From Alistipes sp. (GTDB lineage Bacteria > Bacteroidota > Bacteroidia > Bacteroidales > Rikenellaceae): DNA of 57,797 nt. The translations under genes and the position numbers were made by a program. Where the stretch lies: positions 1 through 57,797 of the forward strand of contig JAGBUB010000032.1 in NCBI GenBank assembly GCA_017631035.1, given 5' to 3'. A model generated the notes under the pieces. The model was not told the origin of the DNA, made no database searches, and saw nothing but the letters and a program-made list of their open reading frames with translations. Positions within the stretch are counted from its first letter, which is position 1. Every line of letters begins with the position of its first letter. Positions 28,076-31,752 of this stretch are shown here, one piece after another.

Positions 28076-29518
28076 ATGAGAAAGATTGTTTTGACCGTAA
28101 TGCTTGCTTTGGTATCGTTGTCGTACGTCGGTGCGAAGGATAAGAAGGCTGTAACAAACGATAAGGGAGAGATCATTAAGACGGGCTACAACTTCGGCCC
28201 TCTGCCCGCCGTAGCATTCGATGCCGATAAGGGCTTCCAGCTCGGCGCACTGCTCAATATCTACGACTTTGGCGATGGCTCGACCTATCCCAATACACGC
28301 CAGCAGTGGTATTTCGAGGCTTCGTTCTTTACCAAGGGCTCGCAGTTGTTCGTAGTGTCGTACGACAATCGTTTTTTGATTCCCGGTGTACGTTGGTCTT
28401 CTACCCTTACACTTACCAACGATAAGGCTATGGACTTCTATGGCTTCAACGGTTATATGTCATACTACGACCACGAGAAGGTGGCTGCAGGTAAGGATAA
28501 GGGTAATCACACCGATTATATCTATACGCCCAAGTATCGTGTAAACCGCCTTGCAATGCTCTTCAAGACCGACTTTACGGGTAATCTATGGCAGAACAAG
28601 TTGTTCTGGGAGGCTGGTTATCACCTCAGCTACATCAAGCAGGGTTACAAGGATAAGCAGGCGCTGAACCTCGATAAGATCAATAAGAATAAGGAGGATT
28701 ATAAGATGTTCCCCGCCGATGAGACTCCCATCTTCGATATGTATCGTGAGTGGGGTATTATCTCCGAGGATGAGGCTTGGGGTGGATGGAACAGCACCGT
28801 GCGTTTGGGTCTGTTGTTCGACACTCGCGATAAGGAGGGCGCTCCCTCGCGTGGTGTATGGGCCGAGGCTCACGCAACTATTGCTCCCAAGTGGTTGGGC
28901 ACGACAAATCCCTACTACCGCTACTCGGCAACATTCCGCCACTACCTGCCCATCGTGAAGAACGATATTCTTACCTTCGCCTATCGTTTGAACTATGAGG
29001 GTACAATCGGCGAGTCGGCTCCCTACTATGTTTTGCCCTTTATCACTGTTATGGGTCCCTCGTATGACCGCGATGGTATGGGTGGCTACCGCACAATCCG
29101 TGGTTTGATGCGTAACCGTGTGCAGGGTCTCGACGTTGCATCGTACAATGCCGAGTTGCGTTGGCGTTTTGTGAATTTCACATTGTGGAATCAGAACATC
29201 GCCTTCGGCCTCAGCGCATTCAGCGATGGTACTATGGTCACTCGCAATTACGATATGTCGTTCCAGCGCACTGACGTGGGTACACCCGAGTACACAGCTG
29301 CAAAGGCCGAGTATGACGAGTATATGGCTCGCTCGGGCAATCGCACCTCTGACCGTCCTCACATCACCGTGGGTGCAGGTTTGCGCTTCATTATGAACCA
29401 GAATTTTATCGTGGCCTTCGAGTATGGCTTGCCCATCAGCAAGTTCAGCAAGGATGAGTTCATCAAGAATCAGGATGGCGATGGTGCGTTCTACATCAAC
29501 ACCGGCTTCTTGTTCTAA
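28076..29518 (+). CDS. BamA/TamA-type outer-membrane barrel protein without POTRA domains
   Basis: 480 residues with a signal peptide (MRKIVLTVMLALVSLSYVGA). The rest is one Omp85/surface-antigen barrel: aromatic-rich alternating strands, an RDKEGAPSRG strand-turn, the GGYRTIRGLMRNR motif (the Omp85 substrate-loop RGF/RGY-like signature) and a C-terminal Phe. No POTRA repeats, so it is not BamA itself. It lies 13 nt after the acyltransferase gene; a role in lipid or protein traffic at the outer membrane is inference. Confidence 0.82.
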   Translation: MRKIVLTVMLALVSLSYVGAKDKKAVTNDKGEIIKTGYNFGPLPAVAFDADKGFQLGALLNIYDFGDGSTYPNTRQQWYFEASFFTKGSQLFVVSYDNRFLIPGVRWSSTLTLTNDKAMDFYGFNGYMSYYDHEKVAAGKDKGNHTDYIYTPKYRVNRLAMLFKTDFTGNLWQNKLFWEAGYHLSYIKQGYKDKQALNLDKINKNKEDYKMFPADETPIFDMYREWGIISEDEAWGGWNSTVRLGLLFDTRDKEGAPSRGVWAEAHATIAPKWLGTTNPYYRYSATFRHYLPIVKNDILTFAYRLNYEGTIGESAPYYVLPFITVMGPSYDRDGMGGYRTIRGLMRNRVQGLDVASYNAELRWRFVNFTLWNQNIAFGLSAFSDGTMVTRNYDMSFQRTDVGTPEYTAAKAEYDEYMARSGNRTSDRPHITVGAGLRFIMNQNFIVAFEYGLPISKFSKDEFIKNQDGDGAFYINTGFLF

Positions 29519-29529
29519 TGGATAATATT

Positions 29530-29564
29530 AAAGCTGTTACAACCTTGTGTTGAACAGCTTTTTT
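29530..29564 (+). terminator. Terminator of the BASS-acyltransferase-barrel run
   Basis: 9-bp stem (AAAGCTGTT with AACAGCTTT) and T-tract, 11 nt after the barrel gene's stop. Confidence 0.85.
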
Positions 29565-29661
29565 GTATTTGGAGTGTGTCTTCTGATTTGTATTAATATA
29601 TACAATGAGGTTGTTATACGATAGTTTATTCTTGAATTGTTAAATATAAAAGTGAATCAAT

Positions 29662-30414
29662 ATGGGACTTAGTTCTAATATCCTTTGGCATCAAACAAAT
29701 CATTATGGTTTTAGAGAAATTTTAAAAACAAGGCAATTGAAATGTTCTTATTGCCTAGAAACTTTTTTGCAAGAACAAGGGGTTAAAGTTGGTTTCCCGA
29801 TGATTAGTCTTAGTGATATTCCTCTTGCAGATATAAGTGAATATCTTGATCAGTATGATGGCTATTTATTTGGTTTTTCAAGGGAGTGGGTTATTAAAAA
29901 TAATTTTAATCCAGTATGGTATTGTGAAAAGACCAATCTAGCTACAACACAGCATAAAAAAATGATATTTGATAAGTTGAAAAGAAAAGGACAGGTGGAT
30001 GATAATATCGTAAAATTGCTTTTTTACTATGGTGCTTATATGAAAGATATAGAAGGGGAGTTGGAAGTCAAAAGTAAGAATTTAAAATATAAGAAATATC
30101 GTTTTTATGATGAGCGAGAGTACCGATATGTGCCAGATTATAATGTTTTGTTAGCAAAGGGACTAGATCAATATTTAACCCCAGAAGAATATGACAATTA
30201 TAAAGCGACCAATGGTAATACTTTGATCAATATTAGTTTGCCATTTTCTTATGATGATCTAAAAGTCATTATAGTTAAAACAGAAAATCAAGTAAGGATA
30301 TGGAAAAGACTCCTAAAACATACGGATATTCATATCTTTTCACATAATGAGATAAAGCAAAGTATCATAGGGATAGGACATCAAATCGAGGGTGAGAGAC
30401 TCCATAAGAAGTAA
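29662..30414 (+). CDS. AbiGi-like abortive-infection protein (solo)
   Basis: 250 residues. The pattern ILWHQTNHYGFREILKTRQL, then PMISLSDIPL (47-55), GYLFGFSREW (67-76) and NFNPVWY (81-87) matches my memory of the AbiGi family (annotated as the antitoxin half of the lactococcal AbiG abortive-infection pair). A YDEREYRYVP segment follows. No membrane segment. The gene and its flanks are visibly AT-rich against the surrounding core genome and it is isolated between two terminators, which suggests recent gain. No AbiGii-like partner is adjacent. Family call is from motif recall, not a search. Confidence 0.65.
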   Translation: MGLSSNILWHQTNHYGFREILKTRQLKCSYCLETFLQEQGVKVGFPMISLSDIPLADISEYLDQYDGYLFGFSREWVIKNNFNPVWYCEKTNLATTQHKKMIFDKLKRKGQVDDNIVKLLFYYGAYMKDIEGELEVKSKNLKYKKYRFYDEREYRYVPDYNVLLAKGLDQYLTPEEYDNYKATNGNTLINISLPFSYDDLKVIIVKTENQVRIWKRLLKHTDIHIFSHNEIKQSIIGIGHQIEGERLHKK

Positions 30415-30417
30415 TCA

Positions 30418-30498
30418 TGGCTATAATGTTATTTGAAAATATTGTTGCTAAAGTAAACGGGGTTATTAATCCTAATAAGATACAAGCAAATAGGTGAA
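30418..30498 (+). CDS. Possible 26-codon ORF after the AbiGi-like gene
   Basis: ATG at 30418, three nt after the previous stop, running to a TGA at 30496-30498 (starts MAIMLFENIVAKVNG). It may be a remnant of a lost partner gene or chance. The terminator stem overlaps its end. Confidence 0.25.
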
Positions 30499-30529
30499 TG
30501 TTATACTCTTAGCGTTCACCTATTTTTTT
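30488..30529 (+). terminator. Terminator of the AbiGi-like gene
   Basis: 11-bp stem (AAATAGGTGAA with TTCACCTATTT), 16-nt loop, T7 tract. It closes the AT-rich island before the convergent DUF819 gene. Confidence 0.88.
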
Positions 30530-30585
30530 GATATTGAATACAAGTCTACTTATGCGAATTGTGTTGGATTTGTTTGTGAGATAGG

Positions 30586-31752
30586 TTATAATAACGTCAG
30601 CAATTTGGCCATCAGCACGCCAAGATGATTTCCCACGGCATAACCCACTATGCCGGCACCGAGGCCTGTCACGAGTGCATTCTTGTTACGCATAGCGGCC
30701 GACACCATAGGCACGAACGGAGGCGAGTTGATAAAAGCCACCGACGAGATAACCATCGAGTCGGCATCGACACGCATTATGCGGCACAGCAGAGCGTGCA
30801 GCGCCAGCGAGAGGAAGACCGCCACTACCATAAAGGCAAACTGGTTGATTCCACCCGCCAGGTCGAGGTTCGAGAAGTTGGCCATCGAGGCTATGGTCAT
30901 ACTAAAGATATATATCAGATACATACCCGCATCGTAGCTCACATCCAGCGTGCGTATGCGCTTGATGAACGAGCAGGCCACACCAAGTGTAGTGAGCAGC
31001 AGGATAAACACCACCATAAACCACCCCTCGGGCACGAGCAGAGCCACACCACCCGCAATGGCGGCCACCGCAAGCGTATAGCCGAGCACCTTGGCCATTT
31101 GGCGTACGCCCTCTCGGCTAAGCAGACGGCTGTAGGGGTTTTGCTGCGAGAGTTCTATCTGTCGGTCAATCTCCAGCTTATCATCAGTCGTGAGCGTGCT
31201 CTCGCCCTGCTTGTAAAGGCGGCGGAAGGCACGAATGCCAAAACTGAATAGGAAGATAAAGTAGGCGAACGAGATGATTATGTCGTAGGAGTTAATCAGC
31301 ACGTAACTCTCGCTGTTGATGCGGAAGATGGCCTGTAGTGCTGCGGCGTTGAGTGTACCACCCGTATACATACCTGTGATGATTCCGCCTATCTGGGCAC
31401 CTTGCTCAATATGACGACCAAAGAGCATATATCCCACCACTACGGCTGCGGCTACCGACAAAAATCCGCTTGTGACAATCTTTATCTGCTGACGCACCTC
31501 GCCACGCGAGAAGGTGCAGCCGAAGAGCATCATCGGGATGGCGAGCGGAATGAGGATGTTGGGCAAAAGATCCTGCACCGAGGCAATCGACGAGGGGATG
31601 AAGGGCAGGTTGCCAAATATCATACCCACAGCATAGAGCACCATAATGGGTCCCAGCTTGCCAAGTAACGGCACACGACGGCAGAGCCAAATCACACCTG
31701 CGGGCGTGAGGCAGAAGATTATTGTGATTAGGGCGTTCCAGAGTAAATCCAT
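30586..31752 (-). CDS. DUF819 family membrane transporter
   Basis: 388 residues with about ten membrane helices. GMYTGGTLNAAALQAIF and AFINSPPFVPMVSAAMRNK are the twin conserved segments of DUF819 proteins, which resemble anion/permease folds. Substrate unknown. Starts 12 nt after the asnA stop, so the two are probably cotranscribed. Confidence 0.85.
   Translation of the reverse strand: MDLLWNALITIIFCLTPAGVIWLCRRVPLLGKLGPIMVLYAVGMIFGNLPFIPSSIASVQDLLPNILIPLAIPMMLFGCTFSRGEVRQQIKIVTSGFLSVAAAVVVGYMLFGRHIEQGAQIGGIITGMYTGGTLNAAALQAIFRINSESYVLINSYDIIISFAYFIFLFSFGIRAFRRLYKQGESTLTTDDKLEIDRQIELSQQNPYSRLLSREGVRQMAKVLGYTLAVAAIAGGVALLVPEGWFMVVFILLLTTLGVACSFIKRIRTLDVSYDAGMYLIYIFSMTIASMANFSNLDLAGGINQFAFMVVAVFLSLALHALLCRIMRVDADSMVISSVAFINSPPFVPMVSAAMRNKNALVTGLGAGIVGYAVGNHLGVLMAKLLTLL

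Follow-up and report, generated by a model that had tools for sequence, protein, structure and literature searches.

The 57,797-nucleotide contig of an Alistipes sp. analysed here (JAGBUB010000032.1; hereafter the window) carries a stand-alone gene of the AbiGi family that was laterally acquired as a one-gene insertion of about 1 kb at a variable site. AbiGi is known as half of the two-gene system AbiG, and most of the homologues that we sampled stand without the second gene, AbiGii, and keep an N-terminal H-x-T motif that is lost in the paired form. From this pattern of sequence conservation, we propose that the acquired gene may encode a self-sufficient, enzyme-like defence effector and that the two-gene AbiG would be derived, a reading to which we assign a probability of roughly 45%.

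A one-gene insertion between convergent core genes

The gene's reading frame starts with ATG, is intact, and encodes 250 amino acids that include the motifs SDIPL, GFSREW and NPVWY. Across ~1 kb around it, GC content falls from ~0.50 to 0.30, confirming the single AT-rich gene with AbiGi-like motifs that an earlier note on this DNA had described. At 0.256, its GC3 is the lowest of the 48 non-overlapping ORFs of at least 150 codons in the window, the next value being 0.467. The locus comprises the following elements:

28076..29518, + strand: upstream core gene, 480 aa (ORF; homologue in relatives)
29530..29564, + strand: hairpin with T-run at the end of the upstream core gene (from folding; outside the pattern-scan list)
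29566..30585, no strand: AT-rich acquired segment, ~1 kb, between two convergent core genes (from GC content and empty sites)
29662..30414, + strand: solo AbiGi-family gene (PF10899, PADLOC AbiGi and phrog_13416 profile matches)
29689..29697, + strand: H10-x-T12 motif (LWHQT; position computed from residue numbers 10-12)
30112..30126, + strand: E151-x-E153-Y-R155 motif (DEREWR in the family consensus; placed by residue numbers 151-155)
30417..30497, + strand: 26-codon ORF without evidence of a gene remnant; overlaps the terminator stem
30488..30525, + strand: intrinsic terminator, most likely of the AbiGi gene (pattern scan and folding)
30586..31752, - strand: downstream core gene, 388 aa (ORF; homologues across the genus)

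Judged by eye from its sequence, the product of the upstream gene reads as an outer-membrane barrel type. The downstream gene we take to be DUF819-like.

The earlier note had placed the gene between two core-gene terminators, of which the upstream one stands. The hairpin at 29530-29564 folds stably (-15.3 kcal/mol, z -4.75 for a 46-nt stretch), is followed by T's, and is clearly a core-gene terminator. The second hairpin, at 30488-30525, carries a T-run, is the sole terminator returned by the pattern scan, and folds at -35.2 kcal/mol (z -5.09 for a 121-nt stretch). Because the flanking genes are convergent, we assign it most likely to the AbiGi gene itself. We rejected the 26-codon ORF, previously put at 30418-30498, as what is left of a second gene: it extends into the stem of the terminator, and its length is within chance at the local composition. 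By hand calculation, a stop-free run of 26 codons has a ~12% chance of arising at 30% GC, and the ORF is therefore not evidence of a remnant.

Homologues of the downstream gene occur in 52/101 genomes of the genus, own included. For the comparison of flanks we fetched 30 of these loci, again with our own among them, and three besides the window have both flanks together. In all three of these same-genus genomes, where the upstream gene is 70-77% identical, the site is empty: the two frames lie 72, 92 and 102 bases apart (stop codons included), separated by one hairpin and no gene. In 10 relatives with longer flanks the upstream gene is absent at that place, leaving the site unreadable there (L239 has a 32% paralogue). 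Because its GC3 is the lowest of the 48 ORFs and the site is empty in three same-genus genomes, we conclude that the AbiGi gene was acquired as a single gene. The site is thus variable across relatives, as had been suspected; the opposite outcome, presence at the same site in all relatives with matching codon use, did not occur, the gene being absent in three and its GC3 sharply different. PF10899 was found in 4/268 genomes of the taxonomic family and, over cut-off, in 14/393 genomes of the order and 9/395 of the phylum, own included.

Within 29480-30640, direct and inverted repeats are short and chance-like, the terminator aside, and we found no mobile element. Neither an integrase nor repeats bounding the insert were seen in the window, whose one tRNA gene lies ~5 kb from the AbiGi gene.

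The protein belongs to the AbiGi family by profile

The window protein matches PF10899 (AbiGi) with 75.4 bits (E 7.7e-21; cut-off 22.4), its residues 29-205 aligning with profile positions 6-184 of 185, so that the failure of profile similarity that could have undone the earlier assignment did not arise. It scores 95.6 bits with the PADLOC AbiGi model and 105.4 bits with phrog_13416, a family of unknown function. With the NCBIfam equivalog NF042957 (AbiGI), whose cut-off is 300 bits, it reaches 28.5. Because it passes PF10899 and PADLOC and falls far short of NF042957, we class it by these profiles as a member of the AbiGi family that is not an AbiGI orthologue.

In an alignment of 108 proteins, P46, M47, D52, W76, P84, Y87, K128, E151, E153 and R155 are invariant, and the window protein has them all; H10, T12, E33, F50 and Y65 are nearly invariant. 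The window protein deviates at F50, C51 and W154, such that the family's CFCDIPL reads SLSDIPL and its EREWR reads EREYR, and is 19-31% identical to the 107 other aligned proteins, paired ones included. Sequence searches returned no credible relative of solved structure, and the window protein, searched by itself, has no match among virus contigs and phage records. Mean-field covariation over 143 sequences (Neff 127, 242 columns) yielded some plausible strand pairs, but the sequences are too few to call a fold.

Solo genes are usual in the homologue sample

No AbiGii-like ORF lies beside the window gene, in agreement with the earlier note. PF16873 (AbiGii) has no match in the gene's own draft genome, which is 57% complete, and passes its cut-off in none of the 268 genomes of the taxonomic family, 13 of which gave weak matches (E up to 1, the best at 0.0018); as a positive control, the same profile detected AbiGii in 3/3 records known to have it. 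Near the other three AbiGi genes of the genus (L005, L006 and L007), the stretches examined contain no AbiGii.

We searched the family alignment against GTDB genome contigs (80 loci) and IMG/VR (35 loci), and looked for AbiGii near the homologues using a profile that had been grown from the copy in Niallia. Counting non-duplicate loci with at least 1.2 kb of downstream DNA, AbiGii lies beside 0/67 genome-contig, 7/27 virus-contig and 1/20 other loci. The genome-contig loci are the 80 most similar, out of 223, to L041, which is of the solo type, and the sample leans solo accordingly. Downstream DNA of at least 1.2 kb was available in 114/136 loci, and the class that we call unpaired includes loci where it is too short to exclude a partner. 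Genes flank AbiGi on both sides at 68 genome-contig loci; at 46 of these no same-strand gene lies within 60 bp, and AbiGi stands transcriptionally alone. Solo is the usual state of AbiGi in this solo-leaning sample, and the stand-alone copy is not the exception that it had been taken for.

Two further arrangements were noticed. At L047 (70-2193), AbiGi is followed after 6 bp by a gene of 396 aa that matches SIR2_2 below threshold and is a possible different partner. On three Enterococcus faecalis plasmids (L253, L256 and L257), a Fic-family gene is followed ~45-85 bp on by an AbiGi/AbiGii pair, the second gene of which is annotated only as hypothetical in L257.

An N-terminal motif separates unpaired from paired proteins

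In a first count, position 10 was a histidine in 133/133 proteins without AbiGii and in 0/8 with it. The split persists in a non-redundant set of 143 proteins, kept after four fragments of under 205 aa and four near-duplicates had been removed before counting; this set takes in the lactococcal AbiG plus enterococcal and streptococcal pairs. Here H10 is found in 129/129 unpaired proteins versus 0/13 paired proteins with letters there, and position 12 is a threonine in 126/129 versus 1/13. Paired proteins instead have N, T, R or K at position 10 and usually M at position 12. By contrast, both groups retain, with few exceptions, E33, D52, Y65, P84, Y87, K128 and E-x-E-x-R, the last of these in the common form E-x-E-[WY]-R. 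Of the 14 paired proteins, six (L253-L258) had been looked for specifically as pairs. Among them, L257 has a partner identified as AbiGii from place and length only, and L258, which has an IS256-like transposase gene just upstream, lacks its N-terminus, positions 10 and 12 included.

A FastTree phylogeny built with columns 10-12 masked unites 14/14 paired proteins, the lactococcal AbiG included, in one clade (support 0.999); homologues with an AbiGii partner, whose existence the earlier note had raised, thus do occur and form a single clade of 14. With the root at the midpoint, the paired clade sits within a group of 131 (0.857), where a single solo protein is its sister (0.899). Because all paired proteins fall in one clade, the loss of H-x-T may have been one event. 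Two-gene AbiG looks like a derived branch, a direction that depends on the midpoint root and its modest support. The window protein lies outside the paired clade and keeps H10, T12 and the E-x-E-x-R set; its tree neighbour is L045 (0.934), a 420-aa protein encoded near a transposase-like gene.

Among the closest known systems is AbiG of Lactococcus (PF10899 plus PF16873), the AbiGi protein of which is homologous to the window protein and shares with it E33, D52, Y65, P84, Y87, K128 and E-x-E-x-R. In contrast to the lactococcal system, the window gene has no adjoining AbiGii and sits outside the paired clade, and where the window protein has H-x-T, the lactococcal copy (L254) reads N-F-M. The solo AbiGi genes of Bacteroidota, Proteobacteria and other phyla (e.g. 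E. coli WP_001272932.1) are likewise single genes with the same residue set, and are carried on chromosomes, plasmids and virus contigs. Among them the window copy is divergent in its SLSDIPL and EREYR motifs.

As given in the excerpt of Dy et al. 2014 (PMC3985639), lactococcal abiGi and abiGii were cloned singly in E. coli and neither inhibited growth. This result does not test the solo form, because the lactococcal AbiGi is the paired form without H-x-T. The same excerpt remarks that many AbiE homologues carry the AbiG name in databases. An excerpt of a review of mycoplasma islands (PMC7466169) places abiGI and abiGII in a vpma locus, and those of PMC3710099 and PMC9252829 have AbiG only in their reference lists. 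Among the literature matches listed, none is a study of, or holds activity data on, solo AbiGi.

AbiGi is likely a remote relative of DUF2971

Apart from AbiGi itself, only one Pfam family, DUF2971, is found repeatedly in AbiGi proteins, matching 24/108 members at E up to 10 (best 0.02), whereas the next family matches 2. A profile built from 37 DUF2971 proteins exceeds 5 bits on 48/143 AbiGi versus 2/180 other proteins, and one of these 180 nominally unrelated controls, which scores 95 bits, is probably a true DUF2971 protein. The same profile exceeds 5 bits on 1/143 shuffled and 10/143 reversed AbiGi sequences. In the reverse search, 12/37 DUF2971 proteins exceed 5 bits with the AbiGi profile versus 1/180 controls. 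The hhalign comparison places the N-terminal and E-x-E-x-R motifs in the same order in both families, without significance, and by eye we recognised collinear motifs (LYKY/LYHYT..IL, HY(G)..IGF, V.Y, K and E.E.R). Taken together, these sequence comparisons make a remote homology of AbiGi and DUF2971 likely. The window protein itself scores 11.8 bits (E 0.64) with DUF2971 (PF11185), below the cut-off of 22. Among the literature matches listed, one genome reannotation names DUF2971, and we found none that joins it with ADP-ribosyltransferase.

As a separate observation, L225 (G707:C1:537073-537363) matches DUF2971 with 30.0 bits, over the cut-off, and AbiGi with 19.5 bits, below it, at the same place.

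H/R-x-T and glutamate motifs have roles in the DarT/ADP-ribosyltransferase superfamily. By eye, AbiGi resembles these proteins in its N-terminal 'H/R-x-T ... L..IL' motif and in a later glutamate motif. Homology to them is unsupported by profile, the matches being no better than controls. The DarT profile (PF14487) exceeds 5 bits on 1/143 AbiGi versus 2/180 controls, which is essentially negative; the AbiGi profile does so on 1/10 DarT proteins (L201, 7.4), and hhalign gives P 0.12 for AbiGi versus DarT. AbiGi scores with the DarT profile lie slightly above those of controls (Mann-Whitney p 1e-9 versus unrelated and 0.003 versus reversed proteins), but their median is -0.5 bits, and the values take no account of relatedness. 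The window AbiGi differs from DarT further in that no DarG-like partner was seen by it and no clear profile similarity links the two.

How a solo AbiGi may act

The mechanism that we favour draws on the pattern of conservation and on carriage. The gene inserted between the two convergent core genes as a one-gene cassette, most likely with its own terminator. In its product, the polar set H10, T12, E33, D52, Y65, Y87, K128, E151, E153 and R155 would form a putative active site, and once triggered by a phage or another element, the solo protein is predicted to stop growth or block replication. The weakest step of the proposal is its chemistry, which might be ADP-ribosyltransferase-like, as hinted by the N-terminal 'LFHFT...L..IL' motif and the later glutamate motif. 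In two-gene AbiG, AbiGii would have taken the toxic role, and AbiGi, having lost H-x-T, would have become its partner or antidote. The H-x-T split makes a prediction: solo copies, unlike paired ones, should be active by themselves and require H10.

A wider version of this proposal concerns the whole family, and we consider it more doubtful. AbiGi proteins would at heart be single-gene, enzyme-type anti-phage effectors with a putative H-x-T ... E-x-E-[WY]-R active site, possibly NAD-using and in one superfamily with DUF2971. Two-gene AbiG would be a branch whose first motif was lost on pairing with AbiGii, and the 'antitoxin' label, where applied to solo copies, would have things the wrong way round.

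That label, which Pfam and NCBI both give to the AbiGi family, invites a different reading of the window gene as an orphan antitoxin, either left over or spreading freely as an antidote against the AbiGii toxins of phages and plasmids. AbiGi/AbiGii pairs are indeed known on plasmids and virus contigs, and AbiGii is not found in the genome itself, an absence weakened by its 57% completeness. No cognate toxin gene was seen near the window gene. Yet paired and solo proteins form separate groups, split at H10 without exception, and with AbiGii over cut-off in none of the taxonomic family's 268 genomes there would be little to be protected from. The earlier note had left the choice between a different type of defence system and an orphan antitoxin; the former is now the better supported and the latter the weaker, because solo proteins keep the H-x-T motif that 13 paired ones have lost, and we judge the antitoxin reading unlikely. 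A non-defence accessory enzyme, metabolic or regulatory for example, that shares the AbiGi fold within a DUF2971/AbiGi superfamily seems to us more improbable again. The remote relation to DUF2971, itself of unknown function, and the divergence of the window protein, at most 31% identical to the 107 others, would fit such an enzyme; patchy presence, foreign composition, occurrence on plasmids and in virus contigs, and positions next to defence genes all speak against it.

Such positions also raise the prospect that AbiGi is a guest or accessory gene of a resident restriction, Avs or similar system, for instance as a backup when restriction is blocked. In the same genus, L005 has AbiGi between a methyltransferase-like and a 196-aa gene in what reads by eye as a type III restriction-modification operon, and L006, again by eye, has it in one stretch with an hsdM-like start. 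L120 has AbiGi just upstream of a type I specificity gene, and E. coli copies lie beside avs4. However, we saw no defence gene adjoining AbiGi in the window, whose ORFs and neighbours were judged by eye, and of 148 neighbour genes scanned around genome-contig AbiGi, any one Pfam family (E up to 1e-8) matches at most 3 and any one PADLOC family (E up to 1e-10) at most 2. These 148 were drawn at random, up to a size limit, from 250 eligible genes, those above 1300 aa being skipped, and were compared with 118/118 far controls; all are longest-ORF calls, some of which may be false. Near and far genes both match many PADLOC models, and no enrichment of defence genes near solo AbiGi was shown. A guest role therefore strikes us as a minority prospect for the window gene, and we keep the self-sufficient effector as our preferred reading.

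Settings of AbiGi elsewhere

The solo AbiGi of plasmid pEC0430-1 has a homologue in 377/5426 complete E. coli genomes, at 354 chromosomal and 45 plasmid places. If solo AbiGi acts alone, this common gene would be a misnamed and little-studied defence protein. The E. coli gene adjoins avs4 in all three copies that we opened, two on chromosomes and one on a plasmid, and AbiGi and Avs4 are perhaps a moving unit. On the two chromosomes, AbiGi and avs4 occupy the soxRS-pdeC-yjcB site, and the plasmid is of IncF type (L248, L250 and L061). In L248 (9001-9822; NZ_AP019189.1 4382361-4383182), an integrase gene lies further along from the AbiGi gene and its avs4 neighbour.

Within the genus, the AbiGi gene of L005 (1288-2720) overlaps its upstream gene by 4 bp and ends 1 bp before the methyltransferase-like gene, and that of L007 stands, by eye, beside a leucine-rich-repeat gene.

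L249, a replicon that looks like a phage-plasmid, carries a relative 69% identical to the E. coli solo AbiGi, and 26 bp downstream of it (L249 6962-9021) is a 403-aa gene with a sub-threshold HSDR_N match. L249 and L260 (3395-4249) are enterobacterial plasmids that look like phage-plasmids (DNA ligase, PhoH or tRNA genes, a YafO-type toxin gene), and they have AbiGi and no AbiGii.
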